From contig NW_024881842.1 of NCBI RefSeq assembly GCF_019059575.1, positions 372,001-436,000 of the forward strand: a DNA stretch of 64,000 bases, read 5' to 3'. The DNA comes from Amphibalanus amphitrite (Eukaryota > Arthropoda > Thecostraca > Balanomorpha > Balanidae). Numbering within the stretch: position 1 is the stretch's first letter; each line of letters opens with the position of its first letter. Under the pieces are notes generated by a model. The model was not told the DNA's origin. It made no database searches and saw nothing but the letters and a program-made list of their open reading frames with translations. A program made the position numbers and the translations under genes. Positions 38,546-62,500 of the stretch are shown here, piece by piece.

Positions 38546-41500
38546 TCACGGCTCCAACAACTGCACAGCTTCATCCATCTGTTCTGGCGTCCAGTAGCCG
38601 TTTTCGCGCACATTGGGCGGGCTGCTTTTCCAATCCCAGACGGGTTGTGGCACGCGCCACTCTGGCCCGTAGTTAGAGATCAGGTAGCGCTCGGTGTCGC
38701 ACGGGACGCGAACTCGCAGCTCTCGAAACTCGGTCCAACACAGCTCGAACGCGGCAAAGTCGTACCTGGGGACGGCGAGGGCGGTTAGAGGTGCGGCGAC
38801 AACATGGCTAGAATAACGGGCTGCTGGTTTCAAGGCGTTTCGTAATTGTTTGTAAGCAGGAAAATCGATATAAACAAAAGCTAGTTTGCTGACATACTCT
38901 AAAACAATCTAGAGATTTTAGACACTTTAGGTATGAGCAACACATAATAGGAGACGGGTTCAAAGGGAACAAACTGTAAAACGCTTTATTTAAATTACAA
39001 TTATCTTAGTAAACATCGAACGATGTTCCGGATCGTCATTTTACATTAAATCAGTTTGTTTACATTGTTTCCCTGACATGAATTTAAATCCTTCTACGAA
39101 AGCTTACATTGTTTCTTTTTATGTTGTCACCAGATTTTGGGGAGAAGACGCCAAACAACAGACAATGTGAAAGCGGATAATGTGAATAAAACATGAGCAG
39201 AGTTTTAGAGCAAAGGCAGGCTTAATGATAATGAGCCGGAATAATTAACGCATTAACAGTTAACACTGTACGGTTCACGACAAATCATCTTATCATTTAA
39301 CCTTGGCAGGGGTCTCACGAACTCTAAGAATAGCTCTAACGGCTGCACCGGAAGATGAAATCAGACCTATGAATAGAAAGACATGAGACGAAACTGGGCG
39401 TATATAACTACATAACGCCACCTGAATTCCCTGCAAGTTCGGACCTCAAAGCTTATCTTTATTTTCCGACAACTCGTGATTGTACTAAGCCCCATCAACC
39501 CAAACTCACTGGCAATTCGGACCTAGTCCAGTCACGAAGACTCAAATTTACTTCATGTCAATTCAGTCCACTAACCCACCTGAACTTTTTGCCAGTTCGA
39601 GCCTGCGTTCCACCGTTCCACAGGATGTCCCCCTCCTCATAGAAGAAGAAGATATCCAGCTTGATGTTATCCGGCGACCGGAAACTCAGCTCCAGACTGT
39701 CTTCAGGCAGTCCGAACCGGTGTACCAGGCGCAGACGCCGCTCGGCCATCGCCTCGACAATCTGTGCGAGGCTCGGCAGTCTGGCATCCCCGGCCCAGTC
39801 GCTGACAGAGTCGATCCGTACGCCGATGTCCACGTCCCCCATGTAAGGCACAAAGTCGCACTGCCGGTAGTAGCCTGGTGGACAGAAGGGGAGGGGGAAG
39901 GGGTCAGTGACGTGGGCCGGTGTGTGTAGACAGCAGGCGATACCGGTTGAAATGAAAGGCAACGGCGTTGTCGATGAAAGAGCTGAGAATTGAAAATGCA
40001 CGCCACCAGTGCAAGTTAGCGTGATTTACAATGAACACAGCTTGTGTCCTGCGTAGTGGTATTATAGTTGTTTTATAATATTCCCCAAACAAAAAGGATC
40101 TGTGAGTAGGTAGCATCCGAATCCATTTCCCCTATCCGAGATTAATTTGCCTATGCTTGTTCAGATGGTAAAGCGGATAATAGGGTGCATGAGTGTTTAT
40201 GCAGAAAGTGATATCCTATCAAGGAGTAGAGCCAATGCAGTTCTTGATCGACTGTTATAGCTTACACGGGCGCATATGAATATGGCATCCAGGCGCGCTA
40301 CTGACTTAGAATGGAAATGACGCTTATCACAGGCCATATCAATAATGTAAGCCTTGGCATCCTGAACTGACAACAACCAGTACCTAACGACTAACGACCA
40401 CCCCGAAAGAAACTAGTCACAGCCCGCAATCGTTTTATTATCAACCAGAGCAACATGCATGCAGCAAACGCTGGAAATCCCAACATTGCGAACAATGTCG
40501 GCTCTTGGTCGGCTCCACCCTGACTTTGCAATAATCATCGTCCCTGTCTTACTAAATGATTACAATGCACAAGCCTTACAATGCCGCTTCGCCTACACAA
40601 AGGCCCAAGAACGGTGTAGGCTCGGTGCTGCATTTGATATGAAGTCCGTCTGCATTGTTTTGGAAAAGTTTTGGTAGGGGTGATGAAACCTAGAGTACAC
40701 ATTGCTGCACAATGACGTTTTTAAGGAAAATGGTTCGCCTGATCTGGGGAACAGCCGCATTACCTCATTCATAAATTTGGATGACTGGAGGAAATACCTG
40801 GCAGTCGCATGCTATCGAACGATTCGAACGATATTTTCCATTCATTTTCCCACTACCGGTCGCGGGCAGATGTCTGTCACGATTGGTGCCATTGAGTCAC
40901 CGCCAATGTCTAGTTTAGACATAGTCATTGTCGAGCTGACTCACCTAGACAGGTTCCAGTGTCTGGTGATGTCAGTGCCAGGGCTGCGGAGTCGGAGTCG
41001 GAGTCGGAGTTGGAGTCGGTCGGAGTCGACAGTTGTGACCGGAGTCGGAGTCGGAGTCGGATTCGATTTTAGAAACCCGAGCCGGAGTCGAAGTCGGAGT
41101 CATCGAAAATCTGTCGACTCCGCAGCCCTGCTAGGTCTGCGGAGTCGGAGTCGGGAGTTGGAGTCGGTCGGAGTCGACAATTCTGCCCGGAGTCGGAGTC
41201 GGAGTCGGAGCTGGTTTTTGAAAGCCGGAGTCGGAGTCGGAGTCGGAGTCGCCGAAAATCCATCGACTCCGCAGCCCTGGATGTCACCCATACACGATGA
41301 GCTGACTCAATTGTAGTACCTATAGCCACTAGACAGGTCCCACTGCTGAAACGACTCACCTAAAAAGTGTTACTACTGAGCTGACAAATGCTACTGAGCT
41401 AGACAAATGCTGCCCCAAGTTGACTTTACTGCTCTATACAAATCCCACTCCTAAACTAACTCACCTAGACAAGTCCCACTGCTGAGCCAGAAGGGCGCCT

Positions 41501-44500
41501 CGAGCTCGTCCAGAGCGGCTGCAGCAGCGGCCAGCAGACGCCAGGCACGGTGTCGGAACCGCTCGGCGTCTGCGGACGCGTCTCGTCCCTCAGTTACGTG
41601 GAACTGGTGTGCCCTCTCCCGGTCACAAGGGATGAACCGGGAGGAGAGCAAGTGACGAACGAAGGCGGGTCGGTCGGCTGGCTCTGACAGTACAGAAGAC
41701 TTGCTTCTATCAGCCAGACGGAACCTGCAGAGAGACAGAGAGGGCAAGAGTGATGTAGAAATATGAGGGAGTGAAATATGACCATCTGCGACCAGGGTGC
41801 AACGGGAACACAGTTGACGCCATTTGTTCACGCCACTTGCTCAAGATTACGGTTTTTAAAGTGTGTAATCTGAACAACACGGACTTAGTGAATCATGCAG
41901 ATTTAAAGACACAGTCGTGACATTGAAATTATTTCTGTGCTCAGTCCGAAGATCTTGTACAAAAACAGGTTTCGGTTCGTTTGCTGCGTTTCAATGTGGA
42001 CGAATCGAATGTCACATTTATGTCGATATAATAAGATATAAATCATCCAACGTTTCAGCTCCACATATTTTGATGGTTCATTTCATTGGGAATATTCTAA
42101 AGCGAGGTGTACCGTTAATTCTATGTGACTCCCGCCTGCCAAACTGACGAATCAAAAACTGGTTGGAGGACGCGGCCACACACAGCTGCAGCGACAGCGG
42201 CCAGCAAAGCCGACAAACGGGGAAGAATGCACTACGAACCGCTACGCCACACATCAAGGGTTTGATTGAGAACAAAGGATCATAGCACAAATGACGCAGA
42301 CATTTTCTGGGAATGATCACTTCTTCCGTGGCCGTGACATTCTTGGAAAGCGCTTTACCCAATCGTTCTCATTGTGATGGTCATAAAAAAGGGAGCTTTC
42401 GTTTCCACGAATTGAATACTTCATATCTCTTTGACAGTCACGACTTCGGCAACGAGCTTTAAATAGTTCACTGCTAGCTACGCCGTCCGTATCTGACCTT
42501 GGCGCGCAAAAGCAGTTTCACTGTACCAGGGTATACAAAAACGCATGTTTAAAGCGTTTAGCATCTATTGGCATTTGTGAAATATGTTTTTATTTTTAGG
42601 CCATGCAATCAAGCAGTAACACTTTTTATCAAAGCTCATGAATTCCATTTTGTTTGCAACGAGACTTTCCTGGTGGTGACTGTACAGGCGTGGGAACCGA
42701 CTAGACAACCATAAAACGGGATCACCGTAAATAATATTGGAACCCAATGGGAGGCAGCCTCATCCTGCACAGTGCACACTGCACACATTGCCTGACATTC
42801 CTTAAAAAACGTAGGTATATAGGTATATTCCTCAGCTGTCTGATCAATCATACCCATGCGCTTCAAATAAACATCTGATATTTTTCGGTTACCTAATAGG
42901 GGACATCCACACCACTACGAACAAAAAGATATTCTTCCCAGTTGCTTGCTGTATGTACCTAAATAGCACGGCTTCTGCCCAAATGAAGACCCATAAACCC
43001 ACGACTTCAGAAGACGGGTCAATCATCTAGTCGCTACATTTTTTCGGTCTGGTGAGGCAGAATTTCGTTATGTTTCAGGCATTTGGAAGGCCGGAGATGT
43101 ATCGCAGCAGCGAAAAGCTAGCGTCCATTTTTCCGAAAACTGGTAGGTATGTAGCTGAATAAAGTAAAACCATTTACACTATGCCGGTAAAACGTTTACC
43201 GCAGAGATGGCTGATGTGAGTGAAATATGATATCGCATTCACATCCAAATTTATTGCACGTCGATGTCGAGTCATACGGAACCAAAAGCGGACACAGCTT
43301 TTGAGAAAGAATGATCTCTCAATGGTGCTAATGAGGACAGCTATTGACAGGAAAACGTTGCACTTAACAATTGAATTTCACACAATGGCAAACTCAAAAA
43401 TCAACAGATGGGGACTAATAACTGCTTAAATTCATATTCGTGACACGAGCATCTTTGGAGCAAGTGGCCTTTATTATTCGATTTAACAATTCAACAAATG
43501 ATCAGTGCGACGGATGACAAAGATCCACCACATCGTATAAAGGCCGGCATTGCAGAAAAACGATGCAAAAGGTCAAAACGAAATTTACAAAAGTTGTCAT
43601 TCCAGGCCCCTGTTCATTGTCATAATACAGACGGACATGAATGTGTTGACATTTCAGATTCCAATGAACCTGGCCTGCGGTGGTGGCGCTGGCATTCAGT
43701 AGGCAAGAACACACGAAAGACATTGGCGTTGTGGCATGTTGACATTGAGTAGGACCCAGGAACCTTGTCTTCGGGCGTCACAGCCTTGTCAAATTAAAAA
43801 CACTTATTTCTCGCAAATGAAGTGCTTGCGGTGGTGGCAGGCAATGTCGTGCCAGACGATGCCTTCTCCCGGGTAGAATTCGTTGAGCACCGCCAGGCAG
43901 TTCTCACGACCCTCGCGGTTGTCGGGCTGGGGCCGGCCGGCGCCTCCGGTGGGTCCCCAGTTTTCGTAGCAGCCCTGGCCCCGGTTGCAGACGGGGGTGC
44001 GGGCCCCGTCGTTCCACACGAACTGTCCTCCCTCGCTGAGGCGCTGTCCGGACGTCCAGTAGAACTCGACCTTGCGTCCGCCCCTGGGCAGTCGGCGGTT
44101 GATCTCCTGCTCCTTCTGCGGCGAGGTGAGCGAGACGAGCCTCAGTCCGAGCTGGCGACACTCGCCGGCCGCCTGGTCCCACGTGTACTGGCCGCCGCTG
44201 TGACGCGGGTTCTCCCAGGACAGGTACAGACCGTCACTCTTGGTGGCTCGCTCTCTTCCAAGGGGAGTAGAGAGCGTCTTAGAAACCTTGCCAAACGACA
44301 CAGATGGTACGAAGCCGCCAGTAGTTATTCCGAACTTCGCCGCGGGGGAACTGAAGTCTTTGCCGGAGCTGAAGTCACTGAAGCCACTGCTAGAACTGAA
44401 GTCACTGAAGTCACTGCCGGAACTAAAGTCTTTGCCGGAACTGAAGCCACTGAAGTCACTGCCCGAACTAAAGTCTTTGCCGGAGCTGAAGTCGCTGAAG

Positions 44501-47500
44501 CCACTGCTGGAACTGAAGTCACTGAAGTCTTTGCCGGAGCTGAAGTCACTGAAGTCACTGCCAGAACTAAAGTCTTTGCCGGAACTGAAGTCTTTGCCGG
44601 AGCTGAAGTCACTGAAGTCATTGAAGTCACTGCCAGAACTGAAGTCACTGCCGCCGTGGAGAGCCTTGAAATCAGTGGTGGTGAGCTTCGGAGCTTCATA
44701 CACATCCGAGAGCTTGGGAGCACCGTAGCCGCTCTTGACTTTGGGCGCATCGTACCCCTTCGTAACCTCGGGGACGCCATAGTCCTTGGAGAGTTTTGGG
44801 ACACCATACTTGTCATTCGGCGCCTTATACAGCAGCGTCTCGACTTTGGGTGCGCCGTAGCCAGTGATGGGTTTCGGCGTGCCGTATCCTGACCGGGACT
44901 GCCGGCCGCCGTACCCGCCGGCATTCCGGTACGTCGGGACGTAGTCCTTCTTCAGTTTGGGTGCGCCGTAGCCGGCAGCCTCATGGAAGCTGCGGAGAGG
45001 TCCACCGGCCGCCGCCAGGCCGAGGAGGGCCAGACAGAGAGCTGCGGATGCCGGGGCCATGACTGTGCTGTGACCGACGTCGAAACACTGGTGCCGACCG
45101 ACCGCGGAGCAGTGATTAAATACGCAAACTAGGCTGCGTGAACTGTTCAGCATTACCAAATCACTGTTTGGCGCTGTTCGAATGATACAGATTGCGAAGA
45201 TTGCACAGAAGCACGCAGTGTTGCATTGTTGAAGTGGATTGCTGTGCTGTTCCATTGTATACAGCCAACACGGGGTGACCATCTGATCATGGGGCGTCGC
45301 GTTGCTCCACCTGTCCTCTGCGGGCACACAGTACCAACCACAAAAATAACTGTGCAACAGGCCGTGGACAACAACGTCCAACACGACTGTCAGTCCCCGT
45401 TGACCTTCGCTGCGAGCGATATTCTGTCGACCGGACGATTCAGTCGGCAGTATCGCACCTTGGAGATGCACATCGTCGTGTTACTTATTGTAGCGTGCAA
45501 GGATTTAAACAGCTGTTACGTTTTGCACCGTCGAATGACAGAGATATTAGGGAATTAGAGGAAACGAAACGCTAGACCAGGGCATCCAAAGTCGTCGGCC
45601 TTATAAGTGTAATCAAACTGTGTGATCAGAGTGTAACTGGAATTCTTGACCATATCTGATATGCTAAATAAGTCATGGTATAACTCACAAAATGTTACCC
45701 TTCTTCAGTACAATAGTTAACTGTAAAAATAGCACATCTTGCTCCACCAATGGTGTGACGTTAACGTTGTAAGTGAGCTTCAACTCGAATTATCCAATAC
45801 ATATGACATGTTGATGTCTAACAAAGCAATTATAATCCTTGAAACGGTTCACCGTTACTTGTTAAATGGCTCAGCATTTCTTCAAACCACAAGCCAAAGT
45901 GCTTAAACATGACAGCCAAGACAAAGCCAGCTTTCATATTTTAGGAGGCGATGTATCTTGAATAACACTGAGATCTCAAGGTAAGCAGCATGTCTGCACT
46001 CTTTTGGGACAGAGGTGGTGAAGGGGTAGCAAACCTTTTTCTTCAAGTCTTCTATGATTCACGTCTAGCACCAGTACAGTACATATTGACTGGATGTAGC
46101 AAGCTGTTGAGCTGAACCGATTCTTTTTTATATTTTTTTTCAAGTATGTATTATCGAACGATCGTGACATATCATCACAGTCACTTCATCGCGACACGAG
46201 CGGCGATCACAGCGTCATCGTTGGCTTCATCGAAGAAAGACCGCACCCGTAAGTGACCGAGGGCGGCACCGTTGTAGAGCAGCCGTTCTGCGAAGCCGGT
46301 GAAACCACAAAGCCAGCCGAGGTAATCACGCAGGCCCACAGAAGCAACAACAGCCAATACTTAAAAACCAAACTTACAACCTAAGGAAGGAGGGTACACA
46401 CTACCTGAGCCAAAAAAATGAGCTGATTCTTTGAGGGTAAAAAGGACCTAAGTACCTATGCATTTATGCAACCGTATGACTTTCAGGCACGATGAATATA
46501 CATTAGAAATGTGGAAGTCTGCATTTTTCTATGTACACCCAGAAATCGTTAAGATCATTCGGACTCCTTTCATCAGCGACAGCGGTCCGGTGAATCGATT
46601 TCACTTACGACACGTGCATCGTGAGGCTTAGATGATCTAGAATTAGGTGCAGAACGAAATGATATGGTAAACAGACAAGCATGTAAAGATATGGTAGTCA
46701 TGCATTCATTGATATCTACTTAATCTTGCGCTGCAAGCGAATTCATTTCAATTTGAGTACGATGGAAAGAATGGAAAAGATAGAGAAAGAGAAGAGAGAC
46801 ATGGAGAGAGAAAGAGAGGGAGAAAGAGAAAGAGATGAGAGAGATGGAGAAGACGAGGGCATAAAGAGAGAAGGAGAAATAAATAAATAAAAGATGAGAT
46901 GTCACAAGCAATTTAACCCGCCATACCCGTTCTCCTCTGGGCCGTGCGCTCGCAAAAAAAAAAAACGAGATGAGTCGTCTTCTGGTCACAATCGTTCGGA
47001 GACCCGAGCCAATCTCGACTGGAGTCTTCGCCATGCTGTCCATTTTCATTCCTTATTTCACGTGTAATAAGGTGTTTCTCGCAGGCAAGCTTTCTGTGAG
47101 GCTTCAAACTACCACCACCCGATCAACGCACCTGCCTATTTCTACCGGACTGACTGGGTCGAAATGGCAAACGCACACGGGGTCATTTTGATTGCTGAAT
47201 ACAAGATACTTAAGTCCAGCAGTTCCGGTAAAATCCTATAAACCGACCGTAAAGTCATAAGAAATACCTAATGCGCCAGCCCTATTAAATATTTCCGTGA
47301 AACCTGGAACGCCTGTGAAAAAAAAATTAAAGATATTACGAAGTTAAAATTCGTGCACAAACAGGCCATGCAAAGCGTCTGAGGGCGGCTAGTAGAGTGG
47401 GGGAGGATGCTCTAATGAGATGTGACATGAGGGAATTTGTAGTAGGTATAGCTAAAAATACCGGCAAGACGTCGTTTGGTTTAAAGCTGCACGGCAGCGA

Positions 47501-50500
47501 GAAGAACAATAGGAAAGTCCTCGGCTTATTCAAAAAGACGTAACAAATCAACCAGCCCGTCGCGTAAGGTGTTAAAAGTTGCTTTTTTTGGCGCCGAACA
47601 ACCCAACAAGGTCTCCAATAATTTCACCATATATTCTTACATGCTGGAGAGTTATCAGGCGATAACACATTGTAACTTACACCGAAAAGAAATATTCAGG
47701 CATGAAATCATCATAAACAATCGAGAGAAATTGCAAAGCAGACTTGAAGAAAGTTTGCGAAAAGCATTGACAAGGGCTCCGGAGCAGCCAGGCCGAGAAA
47801 ATCACCAGCCTGAACACTATGGAGATCACATGGAGCAGATTACTCGCAGACAAAGTGCTTGCGGTGGTGGCAGCCAATGTCGTGCCAGACGATGCCCTCT
47901 CCCGGGTAGAATTCGTTGAGGATCGCCAAGCAGTTCTCACGACCCTCGCGGTTGTCGGGCTGGGGCCGGCCGGCGCCTCCGGTGGGTCCCCAGTTTTGGT
48001 AGCAGCCCTGTCCCCGGTTGCAGACGGGGGTGCGGGCCCCGTCGTTCCACACGAACTGTCCTCCCTCGCTGAGGCGCTGTCCGGACGTCCAGTAGAACTC
48101 GACCTTGCGTCCGCCCCTGGGCAGCCGGCGGTTAATCTCCTGCTCCTTCTGCGGCGAGGTGAGCGAGACGAGCCTCAGTCCGAGCTGGCGACACTCGCCG
48201 GCCGCCTGGTCCCACGTGTACTGGCCGCCGCTGTGACGCGGGTTCTCCCAGGACACGTACAGACGACCGCCCTGGGCGGGCTGCACCTGCTGGACGGGCT
48301 GAACCGCAGGCTGGACCGCGACGGGCCTGGCGGGCTGAACCTGAACAGGCTTCTGCACCGGGACAGGTCTCGCGGGCTGAATCGGCACGGGCCTCGCGGG
48401 CTGGACATGGATAGGCTTGGCGGGCTGGACAGGTCTCGCGGGCTGGACATGGATAGGCTTGGCGGGCTGGACAGGCTGGACGGGTCTCGCCGGCTGAACA
48501 TGGATAGGCTTGGCGGGCTGGACAGGCTGGACAGGTCTCGCCGGCTGGACATGGACAGGCTTAGCAGGCTGGATAGGCTGGATGGGCTGGATGGGTTTGA
48601 GCGGACGTGACGACTGCAGGCCAGCAGATTGAGCAATGCCTCCCACAGGTCGCTGAACTGGCTTCTGGGGCCGACCGATGGGTCTGCCGGCACCGGGGTT
48701 CACCACCGGCCGAGGTCGGGGCTGAGGAACAACGGGCCGCGAGCCTCCGCTGCCGTACTTTTTGTACTGCGGGGTGCCGTATCTTCCGCTGAGCGTCGGC
48801 ACGCCGTAGCTGCTGCTCAGCTTCGGAACCTGGTAGCTGGAAGAGGGCGGCGAGCCGTTCTGCGGACCGGAGGCCGTCGCCAGCCCCAGCAGGGCGAGAC
48901 AGATCACAGAGGACCACGGAGCCATGGCTGCTCTGAGACCGAAGCGGACAGACTGGTGTCGGTCGAGCGGGGCACGGACTTTAAATACGGCCGCCATGCC
49001 CACCCGACTGCTCGAGATCTCACACCTCGTCTCACTAATGCGCGTCACGACAAGACCTAGCACGACTGATAAGAGCATCAGAGAAAATCATGGATTAATT
49101 CCAACGGGCGGCCCGTCGCTGGCAAGCCTTAGCAATGCTGGAGAGATCTAGAGCTCCGGGGACGCAGATCTAGTCAAATGAGATTTGGTGTCAGCCTTAT
49201 TTGCGGTTATGTAATAACATCTCGGACTGCGTACAAATAACTGACGCTAAGACTTGCACGCTATCAGTGTTTGATAACGTAACCATCATCAACGAGCCCG
49301 TTAGCTAGGAAACCAATGACCCACGAAAGCATCCCTGGAACACCTCTTAAAGGTAGACTGCCACCTTTTTTCCACAAAACGGTTTTCACTAGAGCTGAGC
49401 CACCTATGTCCCAGACTGAAGTCGGTTTTCCGAAATTCGAACCCGTTTGCGAGAAATCGGAGACCAAAGTTCAGTTTGATGCCATTTTTTTAGTCCAAGA
49501 AAACCGACATCTCTACTGTTTATCGATAACTTTGAAACATGAATTTTCTTATCTTTTGGTAAATATATGCCAAAACTTTGATTGTTTCGAGATCAGAGAA
49601 GAATTTTGGAGTGTCAAAATAAAAGTTAAACTTATTTATTCAGTAGTTCATTTTTTCCAAAAAAGTGTGGGAAATGGGGTTTAACATGGGCCAGACCCAT
49701 TCCAAATGAGCCATGATTTTTTTAATGTTTTACGAACTTAAATGCAAAGTAAATTAAACATGGCCAATTTCTCATGAAATCATATATTAGTAAATCATAA
49801 AATGCCTTACTTTTTCAAATAAAATGTAATAATCTTATGACCTTGAAGTCTAGTGATGTGTAAACATTGTCGCTAGAAATTAACCGATTGATAATTGTAT
49901 GAAAATCGACAATTTTTTTCGCGATTCACGTGATGATACTTTGTCAGGTGAATTCTAAAATTTTGTTTTGTCCAAGGAATAAATCATAGGCCGATCTGAG
50001 AAAACTTTTTGAAGGTGGCAGTCTTCCTTTAAAAGTACCGGAGTGCAGACGCAAGCCCCTTTTAACAAGTGAGTACTAATCACGAATCATGAAACCGAAA
50101 TAGTCGTAATCAAAACAATGACATGGGACTATGCTGAGCCGTTTCTGCCGTGGCTAGCCACTAACCAGTGGACATGTCTTGCATCCCAAATCACCACAAA
50201 TCCCTAAAGGTCACTCTCCTCCTCGACATGCCAAAATTCACCGAATTAGGAACTGTAGACCAGCGGTTCAGCTTGTCTGACCTCCAGTGCCCCCCTGGGC
50301 GTCGGTCACCGCCCGTCGGTGACCGCTAGCCGTGGGAGCAGAATGTGACACGACCAGTGACCGGCACCACAACAACGCTCTCAGTGCCACGGCTCAGCAA
50401 ATGTCATATGAACAGGGTGTTTTAGTGTGCGGTGACGTCAGTGAAGCTATTAGTTATTACCGTGGCAGTATGGTTGGCCAAATGGCCAGCCTAAGAGGCT

Positions 50501-53500
50501 CGACCAGACTGGACTGCGGACGGTCCACCAAAAGTTACTATAAAGGACATGATTTACATACCTATACTTGAATACTAAAAAATTAGCACATTGCTATTTC
50601 AAATTACTGGGCAAATCACATTTTCGACAGCTTAATAAATAGAGTACACTATTATACCAGTAAAACGCCTTTTGGGCGAAGAACGAGCGAGCGAGATAGT
50701 GAGCCCTGCACGTGCGGAAGGGCGAGAGGGTGCTTCCAACGGGCTTGAACAAAGCACCCTTCTAACCGGTCGCTAGCGGTATGCCAAATTTGAACGCAAT
50801 CGGCCCAGCCGTTCCGGAGATCTGGAAGCGACATTCTACACGTGCGCACGTGCAAACGGGTCCAAAATGACTTTTGCACGGCACCCTACTAACTGGTCCC
50901 CAACCGTGTACCAAATTTGAGCGCAATCGGCCCAGCCGTTCTCGAGATCTGGAAACGCCCCCTGCACGTGCGCACGTGCAGTAGCACCCTAACCGCAACA
51001 CATGGGAATGCATTGCCTGGTGGGTGCCTACCTGTATGCCAAGTTTCAGCGAAATCGCCCCAGTAATTACAGAGTTACTGAAATGGGAACAAATTTGGCA
51101 CCTCTTATTGTTGTATTTTGCACGTGCACTGGGGGTGACCCACATACATCGAGAGTATCCTATTTTGGGTAGAAGGGATGCAGCTACCCTACAAAAACTA
51201 CCGCAAGACAATCGCCCAAGCGGCTGCTGAGATATGAGCCTCTCAAAATCACTACTTTTGCAAAACAGCTTGAACACCCTTGACTTTTCACGTGGCACGT
51301 GCCACGACAGTCACTGAGATGTATCAAAAGTAGTCAATTACGGGGTAGAAGGGATGGGGCTACCAAAAAAAAAAGACCGCAGGCCAATCGGTCCAGCGGT
51401 TGCTGAGATATAAGCCTCTCAAAAGCGTTACAGGCCGGGCCGGGCCGGGCCGCTCATACTGAGATTTTTCCGTTATATTGAAAAGACTCACTTCGTTCGC
51501 TGCGCTCGCTCGCTCGTAAACATCTTTACTTCAGAACCTATAGATAATTGACTTCATTCTCTTTTCTGACCTTTCTTTTTGGAGCACTGCCATTTCAAAG
51601 AGCCTCGTGATTCGTGGGACTTCACTAAAAAGGTCAACAAATTCCTCTCGACGACGCCTCGTAAATTGCTACGGCTTAGTTGATCCTAGGTCAACATTGA
51701 AGTCTATGGCAATTCAAACGTTAATATCGGGAAATCGGCTGATTTTGAGAAAATCGGAAAAACTTTACGCGATGAAAATAGCTCTTATGTGATAAATACA
51801 TAGGTAACTGAATGAAGGTTTAACCTTCGCCCCAGTGGGGGGGGGGGGCATATGTTACCACCCTGTCGCGTTTTTTGCGTGTGAATAAAAAACCGCGGCG
51901 CGTAGCGCCGCGCCGCTTGAAGTAGCTTTCTGTACATCAATTTTAGACAAAGTGTGAAATTTTTGACCCCAGGTCATGTCAGGTCAGATCACCAGATCAA
52001 GTTAACTGACCAAGCCTAAAAAAGTTTGCAATCATGTCCAGCCTGCAAGTGCAGTGTTTGTCAGAGAGGTTTTAAACTTGGTGGATTGCATGATGTTATG
52101 GGCGCCTACAATTTGTATATTCTCGGATTTTTTTTTTATATCCGTGACCTAAGGTCAGGTCAGTGGCGTGACCTTACCATTATAAGTCAATGGAGAAAAA
52201 TGAAAATGCCTCTAGATCCGTGTGTACGCATAGGAACAGTCTAACTATTTCAGAATCACAATGATTTGGAACACCCGTGACGACCAAAGTGTCGTTTTTG
52301 CTGGTAGCCTCTAGAAAGGTCATCCTAGGTCATTTGAGGCTACAAACAGATTTTTGCCAATAACTCTCGATTGGAAAGAGATAGGACGCTGGGGATGGTC
52401 TCACTGTGTTTGTGAGACGCATCGAATGATATGCAACATGACCTTTTCCGGACAGGTCATGACCATGAACTGAGGTCAAATTTTCAAGTTGACCTTTCAA
52501 GGTCAAATTATAGTTCATTCGACGCGTCTCGGCGAGTGGAACACGATTCTGGCAATAGAAATGTTGTGGCTTTTTTTTTAATCAAAAGTTATTGTCGGAA
52601 AACACTTTTCGTAAAAACAGCTATTTTTGGAGTTTTTGCCCTCTGGAGGCTAAACCGTTGACCTAATGTCAATTTTGATAATGACCATATCAGAAGAAGA
52701 GTTCAAAAACTATCGATTGTTTTTCCATGCGTTTTTCTAGTTATCATATTTCCTGAGATAAATGCATGTTTTCTGAGAAATATAATGACATTTGGCAAAT
52801 TTTGACCTTTGATGACCTCCAGTGACCCCAATACTGCTCCAAGATGAAAAATGACCGAAATACTTTCAAACGAACGCGTTGAGAGCTATCGACTGCTTTT
52901 TACCGCGTCTTTCAAGCCCTCTTAGTTTTTGTGTTAGAGGTGGGTGGTAACATATGCCCCCCCCCCCCCGCCCCACTAGGGCGAAGAGTTGGCTGAGACC
53001 GCCACTGGGGCGCGGGTTAACTGGTCCGTTTTTCTATTAAAGGTAGTGTGCCACCTTTGAAAGATTTCCCATTTTATTTTTCCTAGGATAAGAAGCTTCT
53101 GTTTTTACCTAATATCGCAAAAAAATCAAAAATGGGCCTGGAATAGTGCCTTTTTCGCCTAAAAGTTTATCGGTTTTTCAATATGTATAACAACTGTAGT
53201 GGGCTGACCTGCAAACAGGCGTCGGCAACAATCGCGAATGCGGCGCACATGTGACAATGAGCAAAGGTCATTATAGAGTTACGACGTACGGGAATGAGTT
53301 ATCAGCTGTCTAATCGTAGACAACACAATGTCGAGCCTTAAACTGTAAGCCTGTATTGGTATTGTTTCTTTTATTTGGCTGTCGAACATTATTTATGGTT
53401 TGAAATATGATTTTATGTAAAATAATTGATATGAAACAGCCGTCTCTTAAGTTATGACCCCATTTCACCACACGCAAGTGGCAGAAATGACAATGATCAG

Positions 53501-56500
53501 CTGACGCGTTTTTCTTGGCCGAAGTCAGAGCGCGCGGCCCGACGCACCACCACCGCACCACAAAGTATGAGCAGAAGCCGCGCCCAAAGCCAGGGCCCCG
53601 GTAACGTGAGGTAGCCGAGTCGGGGCAGCGTGCGCTGACCCAAGCCGGGGCCGCAGCTTTGGGCGCGGTCTACCGCATCCCCGCGGGCAGCCCCGGGCTA
53701 TCACATGACACCGGGAGGACGCGCGGCCCCGGGTTGGGTCAGCGCACGCTGCCCCGACTCGGCTACCTCACGTTACCGGGGCCCTGGCTTTGGACGCGGT
53801 CTACCGCACCACCTAACAGGCGTGTTCGAAACCGCAGGAGATGATGATGAACGGGTTTATCGAAACTTGATTGGATGAGCATATCGGTAATAGCGATTTC
53901 AGTGTGTGCATTTATTGTTCATAGTGGTGTGAAATGTGGTTGGGGTACGACCGACAACCCGTCGGGGCGAATTTCGCACTGGGGTACTCAAAATTTGAAG
54001 AATTTAAGACGTTTCCATGAGTTTTGAAGGTATGGATAAGTTCTAAAAATCCGGTTCTCCTTATCTGGGCCATTAACTCCATACGGTCCAGGAAAGCTGG
54101 CACACTACCTTTAACCTTGAGCACGATTATGCAGGGGTGTCGTTTTCCGAAAATGATTGGTAGGGCTCAAAAACGGTGGACGGCAATTTATGACGTGGTA
54201 ACGAAGGTAGAATACCCCCAAATTTGCCTTTCTCATCGGATTTCGGCCACTTATTTTTCCGCTTCAGTACCTAATTGAAATTGCAATCAAAAAAATTAAA
54301 CATAAAACTTTTTTTGGATATCTAAGTACATACCTACCAACAAACCCAATGCACAAAACGTGCATTTATGGAGGTATTGGTGTCAGAGGACACGCTCGTT
54401 TTTTTCCGTGAAGCTCTAGCTCGATCAAGGAACGAACGGTTCATAACTGCCCTTTTCGTCGAGTGATATATGACAAAATATTGCTCACGGAACATTGGTT
54501 GGGCCCATATAAACATTGGTAGGGCTCGGGCCCTACCAGGCCTATACAAAACGACGCCCCTGCGATTATGTGAATTATGCACACATTTGACCTGTTGCCC
54601 ACAGCCTAATGCTGATTTTGAAAGAGGTCTGAAAACTGGCAAGGCTAAGTCTGCAGCGCTTCGGCGGGCACGATAAGCTGGGTGTGTTCTGTAATAAAAT
54701 AAGAGAAAGGGTCAATGACATGATCATGTCACGTCACTCGTCACGTCTCTGGCATGACCTCGCCTGGACTAGCCCCGAGTGACCTTAACAATTACACATA
54801 AATGGCTCTCATGTTTTGGAACGCAGGGTCAAATTAAAGAAAGAAACTGCCACACCGGGCTCCAGTGGCGAACGCGGAATTCGAATATCTGTTGGAACCG
54901 CTCGTCGATCAGCATCAGACACCGCTTATTCTAGCTACCGATGACTCTGTGACCAGCGAACCGGCCCGGACAGGCTAGGGATCCTTCCTGCGCTCTGATG
55001 AGAATACCCGTTGCTCATCCGGTGCCTGCGGACTCGTCCTCTCAAGCATGCGTGCCGAACTGGAGGCTGTGACTCCCGGTTTGACCGAGTCTGCTCCTAC
55101 GTGACGCGGACCTGTTAGTCATCGCTACCGACTCACAATCGCTACTGAGTACACTGGGCCCTGTTTCACCGGTGATAGCAGCACGCTGCTATCAAATTGC
55201 GCGAGCTGACGTAATGTGATGACGTCATACTGCTGACGTAAGGGGCAATTCTGGCGCACGATTGCCGCAATATTGTTTTACGTCATCAGCTATATGTTCG
55301 AAGTTAATGTCCAAATTTTTCCTAAAACCAACTTCTTTTAAATACATCATATTGAAAAAATATATATCAAAAATATATATACTATCATGACTGTGTAAAC
55401 TCTTACTTTTAGGCTCATACGTCACTTAATGCCGCCGCCAAGGTCGCGGCAATCGTGCGCCGGAACTACCCATTACGACAACAGTATGGCGTCACGACAT
55501 GACGTCAGCTCGCGAAACGTGATAGCAGCTTGCTGCTATCACCGGTGAAACAGGGCCCTGGAAGCCGGCTGGTCTCCCCCTGAGTGGTGGGACACGGCTG
55601 GGGTCGAGACGGTCTGGGTTTACTGTCCCGGCCACGCCGGCATCGACCTGAACGAAACGGCGGATCGACTGGCAGCGCGCGCAAGCGGAAGGACAATGCG
55701 AATCGCCTCTCTCAGCTTCTGACGTCAGACACCTGCTAATGCTAATGCAAAGGTACAGAGAGGTCAATCAACTCGAGAGCCACGGAAGCACGGAGGTCGA
55801 AAGGAAGCACGGAAGAGGACTGGAGCGAGGATGGGCGCGGCGTTCTCGCCGCTCCGGAGCGACTGGAAGGCTGGCGAGTCAGCTGGCGTGTGGGACCATC
55901 TCCAGGAGGATCCTGGCGGACACCAGCGGGACGGGAGGCGCTGAGACGACATGGGCGCGGTGCTTCGGGCCCCGTTCGTCAACCTGGCTGCCGCCGCCGA
56001 AGTAAGTAAAACATACTTGTTGAGTTTGCATATGTTTTCGCGCAATTAATCTATTTTGTAACTAGCGGTCGTAACTGTTCGCCGTGTGCGTGTCGCCGCC
56101 CGGCCACGGTAGCGCCGGCGCGCCGGCGGGCCGTGCGGCACAGTATGTTTTGCGGGCGCGGCGCTCGGGCGCGCGGTGATTGGCGGTCGCTCACATGTCA
56201 CGTAACCCGCAGTGACCTCCGGTCTGTCCGGGAGGAGCGGGCCACTCGTGTCTCAGCATTCGTCTGGGCCGGGTCGGTCGCAATGTGCGTTAGCCTCCAG
56301 AGTGGCCTTGCCGGGCTCTCCGGGCCGTAGCACTTGTGGCCGCCGAGTGCAGGAAACGGACTTGTTGGTCCTTTCTTGAGAGGTTTACTCGGCCTAAATT
56401 GACACCTAACCTTTTTTGGCACCCAAATCCAGACGGAAGCATTGCATGATGCGGATAACAGACGTGTATCTCATTGACGCCGTCTATGCTGCATCATCAA

Positions 56501-59500
56501 TGCTCCCTATTCCCAAGTCACTTAAAACCGTGCATTTCGCCAGGGTGCACGTTTCACGGCGAAATTAGAGGGGCAGTCCGTGAGCCCCTCCGTGAGCGCA
56601 TGAGGGTAAACAATGAGCTGTATATGATTTGTGCCATATCACAATTGTACCCGATCGTTTGGTAATACGGTGACTGCCTCTCCAGGTTGCATTGCCTGTT
56701 GGTGTCGAAGCTGGTGCACCACAATACAGCACTGAGGTCAAATCCATGTATGATCTTTTATTATACCGGCGCAACGAACGGACGGATTCTTAACAATACT
56801 CAGCTGGTATGTTCCATTCACATATAATCCGTGAAGTCACCAGACGGTACCTTACTTAACCCTCGCCGGCCGAGGGGGGGGGGGTGCCGCCCCCCCCCCC
56901 CATAGGTTTTTTTCGCGATAGCTCCGAACACGCTGGCAATAGAGAGCTGAAACTTGGCATACCTGACCTTTGATCCAAGCCGCATCTTTTGACACCAACC
57001 GCATTTTTGGGTCCGGTCAGGTCACTGACCTATGACGTCATAAGTGAACCTCTGCACGGTCTTCAGATGTCGCAACTTCGCAACGCCCTCACTGCCAGAG
57101 GAGATGTCACAGGGAAATGAAACTTGCAGGATCTAGCATCCATTATGAGTCTCACAACTTGTATATCTCGGATTTTTACTAAAGGTCATATGAGGTCAGG
57201 TCATTTTTGTGACCTCACCATTATAAGTCAATGGGGAAAAATGAAAACTGCTATTCTGGCGCCGGGAACGATCTCCAACTATCTCAAGCACACAGAATCG
57301 TGATTTGATGCACTCCTTGCAAGGTTAGATGCGTCACTTTTGCAATGTTGACCTTCCGTGACGTCATTTATGACGTCATCAAGGTCTTATTAGTTTTTCG
57401 TCAATAACTCCCGATCAAATTGAGCTAGCGAGTCGAGAAAGCCACCAATAGACTCAGGAAGACCTGCCGAATCGAATGATATGCGACATGACCTCTTTCG
57501 ACCAGCTTCGTGACCTGGGGGTGCTGACCTGACCTTGACCTAAGGTCAACACCCCAAGTTGACCTGACCCAAACAAAAAGTATATCATTCGACGCGCCTG
57601 AGCGAGGCAAACACGATGCTGCCAAAATCGCGGCACTGCGACCGTTTTTTTGCGAAGTTATTCACCAAAAACTGAACCGTACCCTGGGGCACTTGACCTG
57701 ACCTCAGAGGTCACCGGTTGACCTAGGACCTTAAAATCGGGTACCAGTCTCTGCGTCTCGTAACGGCGCACACGCTCGTTTTTTCCGCGACGCGCTAGCT
57801 CCACCAGGGGCAAAACGGCGAGGGGGGGTCGTACCCGCTCCCCTCCCCCCTCGGCCGGCGCGTATGTAGAAAACCAATAGGTCCGGCGAGGGTTAAGTCT
57901 GTAACCTTATCTTGATCAAGAGGAGGCGGACATGCATTCCAATATATCAATGAACTCACATGAACCTCACATGAACATCACAATGAACGTCACATATTCA
58001 ATGAACTATGACGATGATAAATGAGTGGTATTAAATCCCAAATACCTATGGTCAAGGGATAGGGATCGCATAAAGCCAGAGATTCTTATACTATTGAATG
58101 TCCATGGGAAGCAAAACTATGTCTAGTAAACAAACAACAGCGCTGTGACAATACAACAGCACTGCTGTTTAAACACATTTTGAAAGCTAAGCTGCCAGCT
58201 TTACTGACACTGGGCGACAGAAACTGAACTAGGAATCAAATAGCCAAACTCGGCCAAGATGAAACAAACACCACTGCAGAGTAGCGCGTCAATCTCTTCA
58301 GCAAAAGCTGGGACTGCACCAGCGTCTGGGAATAGTGACCAGAAAATGCGTCCCTGATCACCCTTTAAAAATAGCGTGGAAGCATTGCTAGGAGTCGGGC
58401 GGCTGCACAAATGCAGTCACTCAAATCATCTGACCTTCACGAACCGCAAAGATGCACCAGAGCCGCCGCGCGCTGCTGCAGCGCTGCGCCGGTATCTCTC
58501 CGCTGCACGGAGCAGGGCGACCACCTCGCCATATGTCATTAACAATGTTCGATCTGTCACGGCTTACCGGAACAATGGGCCGCACCCGGGGCCGGGTATT
58601 TAATGACGGCACCGCGGTCGGTCCGCACAGTGTCCCGTCGTCGGCCGCTGCACAGCCATGGCTCCGCCGTCCACCGTACTCTGCCTGGCCCTGCTCGGTC
58701 TGGCGGCCGCCGCCGGCCCGTACGGCAGCTCCCACTCGTCGTCACAGTACGGAGCCCGGAGACCGGGCAGCACCTACGGAACTCCCAGCTACAAGAGCTA
58801 CACACCTCCGACGCCGAGCAAGGGATACGGAGCTCCGAAACCGAGCGCGAGCTACGGCGCGCCGAAGTACGACGACGCATACCAGGCGCCCAAGTACGAC
58901 GGTGGATACGATACGCCGAAGTACGACAACGGATACCAGGCGCCCAAGTACGACGGTGGATACGATACGCCGAAGTACGACAACGGCTACCAGACGCCGA
59001 AGTACGACAACGGATACCAGACGCCGAAATACGACAGCGGGTACGGCGCTCGTCCTGTCGCGGCGGTTCGGGTCCAGCCGGGAGCGGGACAGCGCGGAGG
59101 ATTTGGACCATCGTTCGGCGGCCAGAGGCCCAAACCTGTGCAGCGATTCCAGCAGCCATCTCAGCCATTCCCGCCCCAGGGCGGTCGCGGCGGTCTGTAC
59201 GTGTCCTGGGAGAACCCACGTCACAGCGGCGGCCAGTATACGTGGGACCAGGCGGCCGGCGAGTGCCGCCAGCTCGGACTGAGGCTCGTCTCGCTCACCT
59301 CGCCGCAGAAGGAGCAGGAGATCAACCGCCGGCTGCCCAGGGGCGGACGCAAGGTCGAGTTCTACTGGACGTCCGGACAGCGCCTCAGCGAGGGAGGACA
59401 GTTCGTGTGGAACGACGGGGCCCGCACCCCCGTCTGCAACCGGGGACAGGGCTGCTATGAAAACTGGGGACCCACCGGAGGCGCCGGATTCCCCCAGCCG

Positions 59501-62500
59501 GACAATCGCGAGGGTCGTGAGAACTGCCTGGCGGTGCTCAACGAATTCTACCCGGGAGAAGGCATTGTGTGGCACGACATTGGCTGCCACCACCGCAAGC
59601 ACTTCGTATGCGAGTAATGTACGACTGTCTGACGTAAAACTAAAACACGAAAAACTGGTGCGACTGTGCTGATGATTGTGACATACAAGTTATAACGTAT
59701 CTGTTCAATCCTCGATAAGGTCGAGATCAACATTCACGTTTTTATTAGAAGATATAGAAGTATATGTGGAAGTACCAAGGAAAATAATTCATGCATTATT
59801 TGCTACTATTTCGTAAGGAAAAAAATACAATGCCCGCACTCTGGCAGAGAAAACAATCAAATACCTAATGGACGATGCTGTGAGTGGACCAATGATCTGA
59901 CAAATAGGTAGCATAGTTAACAATAGAACCGAGGGTGACGAGGAGCCGAGGCAATCCACTACTGTTTGGTCAGCTTTTGGTCTGAAGACATGCCGGTGGA
60001 CCGAACGATGTTGCTTTTTAGTGTAGCTAAAGCGTAAGGTGCACCCATAATGTCGCGTAACCAAATATGCATATCGTGCACCCAGGACAAAGCCCACCAC
60101 AGAACTACACCTCGAAACTCATCGATCACATGTGTAATGTGTTTAGCCTTATAAGGCACTTACCTGGGCATCCATCCCTGGTATTTGCCGACGAAAAATC
60201 CATCATTGGATTCGGTAAATGGCAGAATGTTATGAGGTAGCTGATCAAACCACCAGGACCCATCTGCTTGCAGAAACCAGTTGGCAAAATGCAGCACTCC
60301 TTCAGGTTGCAGAGTTATGAAAAAATGAGCTATTGTTTCAGCTGCTACAGACTTATTTGACGTCGAATACTTCACGTCCTTTGAAATCGATTTGACAATA
60401 GATTTCTGGAAACAGAAAAGATGTGAATGACATGAGTTTCTGAACACACTTAAACTGATAAGTAACTACCTAGTTATAATTATCAAATCCCTAATAAGCA
60501 GCTAGGGGCACTGCAACCCCACCAGTATAAGCCAATGGGAGAAAATTGAGCTGCGATTTTTTGGAAGTGGACCATACTAAACGCTCTCAAACGAGTAGCC
60601 AGTAAACATAGCACAATAAATCGGAAAATTGCACACGTGACCCCTATATGTACCCCTGAGGTCATCTAAGGTCATGAAAGGTTCTCAATGGGTTTTAACA
60701 TTTACTTTTGATAGACATGCTAGACAGATGAAAAATCCAGAATGTGTCCAGATCAACAAGGTGAATCTACCGGTATGTAGGTAATGTGATCTTTTCTGGC
60801 CAGTCATGACCTTGGTCATGGATCCAATTTGTTGGTGGATCTTTTCAGGCCAAATTATAGCCCATTCGACGGGTCTCGACAAGAGGAACGCTATATAAAA
60901 AGTGTAGACATGCTTTGAATCAAGTTACTGAATGAAAGGTTCCCGCAAAAAAGGTCAATTTTGACAGTTGTTGCCTTCTATAGGCTAAACCGTTGATGTT
61001 AAGTGAACTTCGAGAACTTTCTCGGTAAGAGCGTTAGGAGAGCTCTATCAAATGCGCTTCCCCGCGGCAATCTAACCTTTTTGTTCCCGAGTTATGCACC
61101 GATTGGTCAAAAGTTGTAGTATATACTAGGCGGAATTTGACATTTGATGACTTCTCTGCCGTATAAAGGCAAAACCCATTATGTTTGGGTGACCTCTGAC
61201 CTGAGGCAATGGCCTCTGACCCGACATAATGGTTTTTGCCTTTGCACGGCAGTTCTGGTGACGTAACCTTAACCCTCGCCGGCACAGGGGGGGGGGGTGA
61301 TGCACCCCCCAAGGTTTTTCGTGAATAGCTCGCGTAAAAAGCGGCCGATCGCGACGAAACTTTCAGTACCCTCGCATTGATCAATTTTACACGTACCCTG
61401 AAAATTTCATGACCCTGACCCAAATGACCTTTGACCTGTGACCTACTTTCCGAGACCATGTTTGGCCGGAATCGCGATTTGGTCATGTCGGCTCGCATAA
61501 GCCGCGCGTTTGCAAGCTTTTCGTGGTTTCAAACGTTCAAACATGTGATTTGATGTTGCTCCCATGCAATATGCATTAGGGTGAATGTCAAGGTCACCTA
61601 AAGGTCAGGTCAGGTCATTGGCCTTTGGTGACCTCGGCTCACTTTTTCGAGTTTTACATGTTTCTAGGCTAGTTTTTGGAGCTGATTTCGAATTTAGCAA
61701 CCATTTGAACATTTCCGAAGTAGTTTTGATGCCTTCCTAACATGTTACGAAGCTGTCGGAGGCGGTTGACACGTATTTCGAATAGGCACCCGTCACGACC
61801 CCTACCGGTTGACCTGACCTGACCCGACCCGACCTGGTCTAAATGCTTAAAGACATCATCTCTGATCAAAACTAACACGATATTCCTGATCAGCACCCCG
61901 GAAAACCCCATAGCAGTCACACTTTACGGCTTTCTAACAGGCCCCGACTTTCCCGATTTTCGGGTCATTGACCTGACCTGGAAAGTCACCCGATGACCTA
62001 GGACCTTAAAATTGGATATCATCGGCTTCCTCTCGTGACGGGCAGCACGCTCGTTTTTTCCGCGAAGCTCTAGCTCGATCAGGGACCAAACACGAGGGGG
62101 GTCGTACCCCCCCCCCTTGTGCCGTCGAAGGACGCAAAATGGCCTGTGCCGGCGAGGGTTAAGCCCGATCTAAAAAAGACCGGAGTAATTGTGTCATGCT
62201 TTTTGAAGCACTTTCGAACACCACCTGGCACCTATCGCGTGTGACTAGGTGGCCCAGGAGTCGAGTTGGAGTGGGGTGTTCGTGTTCGCTCCCCCTCTCC
62301 CCCAGTGAAAATCCAGGGAAGCCAGCATGCCATGGTTTAAATGGCAACAATCAGCAAACATAAACACTTACCAAGACCAGTGAATCAGGGATCTCCTTCC
62401 AGAGAATGCAGACAGTCTTGCATACACAGCTCCCAGCCGACTGTTCATTGGCACAAGAGCAATCACTGGATTTAAAAGCAGTTGTATTATTCAGCTCACA

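Follow-up and report, generated by a model that had tools for sequence, protein, structure and literature searches.

Three neighboring genes, each ending in a C-type lectin domain, were found in a 64,000-nucleotide (nt) stretch of the genome of the barnacle Amphibalanus amphitrite (RefSeq assembly GCF_019059575.1, contig NW_024881842.1, positions 372,001 to 436,000 of the forward strand). The assembly fits this species or a very close relative, since both published PCR primers for the A. amphitrite cement protein AaCP43 (PMC5099703) match it exactly, each at two places; no further match at up to one mismatch was listed, and the reversed-pattern control gave none. The primers enclose 1347 bp on contig C709 and 1326 bp on contig C1091, compared to 1344 bp in the publication. 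A search with the cement protein CP20 of Megabalanus rosa gave no match, which by itself shows nothing in the absence of a positive control. We refer to the whole 64,000-nt stretch as the window and to the genes as genes 1, 2, and 3. All three lack introns and share one layout, which is a leader, a low-complexity region private to each gene (the body), and the C-terminal lectin domain (the head). Their features, in window coordinates with lengths in amino acids (aa), are as follows.

43804..45060, minus strand: gene 1 coding sequence, 418 aa, with signal peptide, YGxPK units, FSSGxDF array, and lectin domain (open frame, Pfam PF00059)
45116..45122, minus strand: TATTTAA box of gene 1, 62 nt 5' of the start codon (motif scan; putative promoter element)
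44230..44997, minus strand: gene 1 body, 256 aa, Ser/Gly/Phe/Lys/Asp, with its array at 44347-44653 (composition and tandem-array analysis)
43810..44229, minus strand: gene 1 C-type lectin domain, 140 aa, with QPD and WHD motifs (Pfam; motifs via alignment to PDB chains)
47840..48925, minus strand: gene 2 coding sequence, 361 aa, with signal peptide, short YxVP/YGTP units, QPAKPIHVQPARPVQ array, and lectin domain (open frame, Pfam PF00059)
48981..48987, minus strand: TATTTAA box of gene 2, 62 nt 5' of the start codon (motif scan; putative promoter element)
48263..48862, minus strand: gene 2 body, 200 aa, Pro/Gln/Val/Ala/Arg, with its array at 48299-48595 (composition and tandem-array analysis)
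47843..48262, minus strand: gene 2 lectin domain, of a protein type that on the other haplotype also follows a gene-1 body (sequence comparison)
58658..59617, plus strand: gene 3 coding sequence, 319 aa, with signal peptide, YGAP/YDTPK units, and lectin domain (open frame, Pfam PF00059)
58597..58603, plus strand: TATTTAA box of gene 3, 61 nt 5' of the start codon (motif scan; putative promoter element)
58721..59194, plus strand: gene 3 body, 158 aa, Gly/Pro/Tyr, with an array of 27-nt (9-aa) units at 58860-59044 (composition and tandem-array analysis)
59195..59614, plus strand: gene 3 lectin domain (Pfam, sequence comparison)

Each protein gave a single Pfam match at E up to 1, Lectin_C (PF00059), with E-values of 6e-10 to 1.4e-9 and scores of 39.1-40.2 bits compared to a gathering cut-off of 22.6. 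Compared to the gene 3 lectin domain, identity is 97% for that of gene 1 and 98% for that of gene 2. When the three were aligned with seven relatives, PF00059 was matched by 10/10 domains, and QPDN, WHD, and a Glu located two positions ahead of the third-last Cys are kept in all ten. At the matching columns of the alignment to PDB chains, CRD4 of the mannose receptor (MMR) has EPN, E, and WND. The lectin cysteines are retained, while WND has become WHD. We take QPD to be the galactose type, and QPD, Glu, and Asp to be the usual ligands of Ca2+ site 2, with one Asn replaced by His in the barnacle domains. The invariance of QPDN suggests that a sugar site is under selection.

The hydrophobic leader MAP...CLALLGLA is found at the N terminus of each protein. 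Gene 1 probably starts at the inner ATG at 45060 because the TATTTAA box then lies 62 nt upstream, as in genes 2 and 3 (62 and 61 nt). The motif scan placed this box 61-63 nt 5' of the start codon in 7/7 cluster copies from both haplotypes. By BLAST of the 400 nt upstream, gene 1 aligned with genes 2 or 3 only over the last 60-80 nt, approximately from the box on, and genes 2 and 3 gave no alignment over these 400 nt. Common descent seems to account for the signal peptide, some of the core promoter, and a small number of Y-x-[AVT]-P units in the three genes; the long repeat arrays differ. The original prediction called the repeat modules unrelated, which goes too far for the N-terminal part.

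No cysteine is present in any of the bodies, and their compositions differ. Gene 1 is rich in Ser (21%), Gly (14%), and Phe, Lys, and Asp (10% each), gene 2 in Pro (24%), Gln (15%), Val (14%), and Ala, Gly, and Arg (8% each), and gene 3 in Gly (17%), Pro (15%), and Tyr (13%). Tyr makes up 2.5% in gene 2. The bodies of genes 1, 2, and 3 have isoelectric points of 7.9, 12.0, and 9.5, which is neutral to basic. Units of the form Yx[AVT]P occur 9, 3, and 9 times, compared to means of 0.11, 0.28, and 0.44 in 1000 shuffles per gene. The maximum was 3 in each set of shuffles, so the count for gene 2 is within reach of shuffling. Under the strict form YG[AVT]P, the counts are 6, 2, and 3. The picture of three intronless genes with a signal peptide, YG(A/V/T)P modules, and a near-invariant lectin domain is borne out by the open frames, the Pfam matches, and the 97-98% identity, with the reservation just given for gene 2. 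Linkers of differing composition had also been proposed and were seen, but the label Pro/His/Lys for gene 2 was not; Pro/Gln/Val fits better.

A related region was found at C770:40001-80000, which is collinear with window positions 33-63 kb in BLAST pieces of 83-97% identity and which we read as the other allele of the cluster region. It carries four cluster genes compared to three in the window. One gapped BLAST piece takes window 41445-48264 to C770:49654-56560, through gene 1 up to the gene 2 lectin domain, and window 43806-46170 aligns again at C770:56135-58510. The extra gene, g1b (at C770:56136, minus strand), has a 5' flank of the gene 1 type (94-96% over 400 nt) and a 3' flank of the gene 2 type (94-95% by BLAST, 97% over 583 aligned columns). 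Its body is that of gene 1 and its lectin domain, in protein, is that of gene 2. This gene appears to be what unequal crossing-over between the gene 1 and gene 2 lectin domains would produce, if the break fell at the domain start or slightly within it. Another explanation is that g1b, and with it the fourth gene, is an assembly error in which two haplotypes were joined at the near-identical lectin domain. Lectin domains that are 95-99% identical over 420 nt, and strongly diverged haplotypes that are both present in the assembly, would favor such a join. We consider it improbable, since the flanks on both sides fit one unequal crossing-over and the two gene-1-type copies on C770 are 3.7% apart over 400 nt upstream, with a synonymous divergence (dS) of 0.136 in the body. 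Such differences rule out that a single copy entered the assembly two times. The recombinant region may also be an assembly join with a third haplotype.

Other differences from the window were seen on C770. The outer gene-1 copy (C770:52035-53687, minus strand) has TAG in place of the Trp of WHD, which would cut off the final two lectin-domain cysteines, and is probably a duplicate that has become a pseudogene. The interval from gene 2 to gene 3 (window 49355-58193) spans about 8.8 kb, compared to about 2.5 kb on the other haplotype. A 1.1-kb stretch of this interval, 53036-54120, has a 96.8% copy at C770:42069-43162 and is probably a mobile element.

Among the cluster paralogues the lectin domain is homogenized, while signal peptides, bodies, and 3' flanks have diverged. 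Lectin-domain dS is 0.083-0.180 among the three paralogues of the window haplotype and 0.043-0.078 for the three allele pairs (0.043-0.180 over all 21 pairs), and the nonsynonymous divergence (dN) within the cluster is 0-0.02. The signal peptides of the same three paralogues give a dS of 0.59-0.98. For this contrast, Fisher tests gave nominal P values of 8e-6, 2e-4, and 0.027 per pair, from rounded counts and with only about 20 synonymous sites in the signal peptide. No BLAST match (E 0.01) was found between the three paralogues in the 600 nt 3' of the lectin domain. Lectin-domain dS is 0.54-1.60 in nine selected pairs that include an intron-bearing relative. These values are most simply read as the outcome of repeated crossing-over or gene conversion. 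Much the same pattern would result if a single lectin domain had recently spread onto genes that are older.

The bodies, in turn, look constrained between alleles. Although repeats are hard to align and the values are rough, body dN/dS between alleles is 0.18, 0.05, and 0.13 for genes 1, 2, and 3 and 0.24 in both comparisons involving g1b. Length changes between haplotypes keep the frame. The gene 2 body is 20 aa longer on the other haplotype in a single block, which can be read as a 17-aa unit with three extra residues, and the gene 3 body is 9 aa shorter, 9 aa being the period of its array. The possibility that the bodies are frame noise or junk was rejected because of these dN/dS values (0.05-0.24). 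Antisense open frames lie over gene 1 (43798-44892, plus strand, 364 aa) and gene 2 (47771-48610, plus strand, 279 aa) and most likely arise as a side effect of the high GC content and the repeats.

The 807.6-Mb assembly (2644 contigs) was searched with the cluster lectin domain, which gave 33 matches with exon pieces counted in. Two relatives supplied their second exons as further queries, and each of these gave 28 matches. Lectin domains were modeled for seven non-cluster loci (13 copies on contigs, alleles included), and a phase-1 intron inside the domain was the best-scoring splice pair in 13/13; counted by eye, the codon that it interrupts precedes the invariant Trp of WTS by five residues. 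This intron is absent from 7/7 cluster copies. All seven loci have a leader and then a compositionally biased stretch upstream on the same strand. The body is linked to the lectin exon by position and strand rather than by transcript, with the exception of C104/C839. The bodies at these loci are as follows.

C718A/C34A: SGAQNFH repeats and one SSSYGAPR
C718B/C34B: 65% Gly, with Arg and Tyr
C30: 41% Gln
C1123/C127 and C262/C585: Gly-rich bodies
C104/C839: PVYKPVVKPVV, whose open frame continues through the first half of the lectin domain
C284/C120: Thr/Pro and then Gly/Ser, start codon not visible

Further leader-like frames were seen upstream at C30, C262, and C284 as well. Elsewhere, a first exon containing HYGAPKYPY is possible at C157, C1 has a leader and lacks a clear body, and no biased body was found in the 10 kb searched at C52 and C92. 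C20, C1700, C1156, and C30:1423 kb lie outside this survey of bodies. A tree was built from 24 lectin domains, of which 19 are different, and several of its branches are long or weakly supported. In it, the cluster and C718A/C34A group together with support of 91/96 inside the intron-bearing family. The cluster has therefore lost the intron. Its loss would fit a retrogene origin, and simple loss fits equally well, as only one intron is involved.

Two further observations concern relatives and the shared unit. At C718:69.4-73.9 kb and C34:337-341 kb, the SGAQNFH-body and Gly/Tyr-body relatives lie tail to tail, about 3-4 kb apart, as a second small family cluster. A long open frame at C907:102615-103001 and C1961:18813-19199 (L043, L044) has ESYGAPQVE and DYSAPAQQ repeats, with no lectin domain in the 3.2 kb inspected; it is perhaps a resilin-like structural protein with the YGAP unit in common.

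On balance, we lean toward genes 1-3 encoding secreted extracellular-matrix or adhesive proteins, in which a polymer body is joined to a sugar-binding anchor. The signal peptide would export the protein from an epithelial cell, and the cysteine-free body, rich in Tyr/Gly/Pro, Phe/Ser/Gly, or Pro/Gln/Val, would be disordered and form a self-associating polymer network. Bodies that bear Tyr could be cross-linked through their tyrosines, as in resilin. The lectin domain would tie the polymer to matrix glycans (chitin-associated, shell, or cement glycoproteins) or to mineral, probably with Ca2+, so that differing bodies would give differing material properties on a constant anchor. Because it is one uninterrupted stretch common to neighbors, the lectin domain could also serve as the recombination site, where it is homogenized and where crossing-over joins the body of one gene to the head of another. 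This matrix or adhesive role is supported by the architecture, the motifs kept in 10/10 domains, the seven further loci, the allelic dN/dS, g1b, the SYGAP of pro-resilin, and reports on A. amphitrite proteins with such a domain in adhesive and shell and on C-type lectin transcripts before molt (discussed below).

Similar parts are known from other animals. The sea-urchin spicule matrix proteins (SM50, SM30, SM37, SM29, and PM27) are described as secreted, with one C-type lectin domain (CTLD) in eight of the nine proteins covered by PMC6771980, disordered low-complexity repeats, and gene duplication; in SM50, the lectin domain is conserved while the repeats diverge in number and sequence, and concerted evolution is described (PMC6771980, PMC4336488). 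The barnacle genes likewise combine a signal peptide, a CTLD, and low-complexity repeats in a gene family. However, the sea-urchin CTLD is N-terminal and the repeats are C-terminal (types A and B, PMC6771980), which is the reverse of the order in the three barnacle genes. Concerted evolution is reported for the sea-urchin repeats, whereas in the barnacle the lectin domain is homogenized; the two systems are likened here by description and not by sequence. Since SM50, SM30, and PM27 are reported to have the same parts (PMC6771980, PMC4336488), genes 1-3 could instead encode shell mineral-matrix proteins, with a lectin domain that binds calcium carbonate or matrix proteins rather than sugar and a body that acts as a hydrogel to steer crystal growth. 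The QPD-bearing CTLD proteins reported in the A. amphitrite shell (PMC4519255), and a Ca2+ site altered to WHD in domains that keep their lectin cysteines, agree with this possibility. We regard it as rather unlikely, given bodies that are neutral to basic and a QPDN motif whose invariance (10/10) suggests a selected sugar site.

Closer in part order to the anchored polymer that we favor is apfp-1 of the mollusc Atrina, described as a signal peptide, Tyr/Lys/Pro tandem repeats (PVYK six times, VPKYKS/P), a Gly-rich Tyr region, and a C-terminal C-type lectin domain (PMC4912638). Its adhesion was measured and is attributed to a dihydroxyphenylalanine (DOPA)-Fe body and a mannose-binding head (PMC4912638). 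The order of parts is identical to ours, and the likeness of Tyr-bearing repeats with a C-terminal CTLD is clearest in gene 3 (Tyr 13%). By eye only, the body nearest to apfp-1 in letters is the PVYKPV of C104/C839. In contrast to the barnacle genes, known from sequence alone, apfp-1 is described as one protein with one body, for which DOPA has been shown. In Drosophila pro-resilin (CG15920), SYGAP is reported in the repeat along with a chitin-binding domain (PMC7794388), so that an extracellular matrix polymer is again paired with a carbohydrate-binding domain and the Y-G-A-P core recurs. Only this core is shared, as the pro-resilin repeat GGRPSDSYGAPGGGN is absent from the window genes. The lectin domain also stands in place of the chitin-binding (RR) domain, Lectin_C being the only Pfam match at E up to 1.

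The original prediction held that no described family has this combination. From what the cited descriptions state, the sea-urchin spicule matrix proteins and apfp-1 of Atrina do have it. Its idea of one head with interchangeable bodies fared better, as the head is homogenized, the bodies differ, g1b is a recombinant on the other haplotype, and seven loci have the same layout. The architecture is not new as a kind; what is new to us is a many-locus family whose head is homogenized within a cluster, together with a body-head recombinant that one haplotype carries and the other lacks. No title describing this barnacle lectin family was found, and the literature found for YGAP with lectin, cuticle, or barnacle did not contain the term YGAP, which is weak evidence because subscription literature mostly falls outside the search.

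Several barnacle reports bear on where such proteins may act. AaGrCP1 (KAF0304842.1), a bulk adhesive protein of A. amphitrite, and XP_037090570.1 of Pollicipes pollicipes have a predicted CTLD and 59% mutual identity in an adhesive proteome study (PMC8371367), and both are possibly members of this family. The A. amphitrite shell is reported to contain two CTLD proteins with QPD (PMC4519255), and C-type lectin transcripts in sub-mantle tissue are reported to rise before molt (PMC4619306). The BRA lectins of Megabalanus rosa are barnacle C-type lectins linked, in papers that cite other work, to CaCO3 growth (PMC4619306, PMC4519255). The descriptions given there mention no repeat body, and the likeness is one of description and not of sequence.

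Ordinary soluble immune lectins, in which the body is a passive stalk or a mucin-like spacer giving avidity, would also have a C-type lectin domain. Immune genes often show copy-number differences, and copy number does differ between the two haplotypes. The galactose-type QPD has been read as possible bacterial recognition (PMC4519255). We nevertheless find an immune role quite unlikely. A spacer need not hold its composition, yet the allelic body dN/dS is 0.05-0.24. The lectin domain is homogenized and not diversified (dN 0-0.02 in the cluster), the reverse of a recognition arms race, and body compositions are mostly different among the ten loci.

Five points count against secreted matrix or adhesive proteins with a sugar-binding, recombining head. 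First, the Ca2+ site is non-canonical, with WHD for WND, and binding may be weak or of another kind. Second, AlphaFold modeled the lectin domain poorly from an alignment of the three near-identical window rows (predicted local distance difference test score, pLDDT, 47), which gives no structural support. Third, a permutation test like the pairwise homoplasy index (PHI) for recombination inside the lectin domain was not significant (P 0.53, with 56/171 site pairs incompatible), and the conversion reading rests instead on the dS contrast and the flanks. Fourth, arthropod C-type lectins are often immune and are so classed in PMC8371367. Finally, the link of these particular genes to cuticle, shell, or cement is a prediction from their architecture and from likeness to other proteins.

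A broader and more tentative proposal, which we hold as possible but doubtful, is that the barnacle has a kit for swapping bodies. The intron-free sugar-binding plug would be a recombination cassette, kept uniform by conversion and moved between polymer bodies, with shuffling still ongoing (a three- versus a four-gene haplotype and a new fusion protein). At least ten loci would then give the materials of cuticle, shell, and cement one docking end in common. The family is a testable case, in an economically weighty fouling organism, for the wider question of how new materials evolve in sessile animals. The anchoring domain and the polymer evolve by opposite rules, with a homogenized head and private bodies. 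Family members are candidates for the CTLD proteins known from barnacle adhesive and shell proteomes, and their natural fusions of a lectin to a polymer could be put to use in underwater adhesives. Spicule proteins of sea urchins and byssus proteins of bivalves resemble this family, which suggests that a lectin with a low-complexity polymer is a recurrent solution.

Two other open frames were noted in the window, both on the minus strand. The first, at 14775-16187, is a zinc carboxypeptidase with its propeptide (PF00246, E 8e-79; PF02244, E 6e-9). The second, at 25170-26504, is a reverse transcriptase of 444 aa (PF00078, E 3e-22) and belongs to a retroelement.

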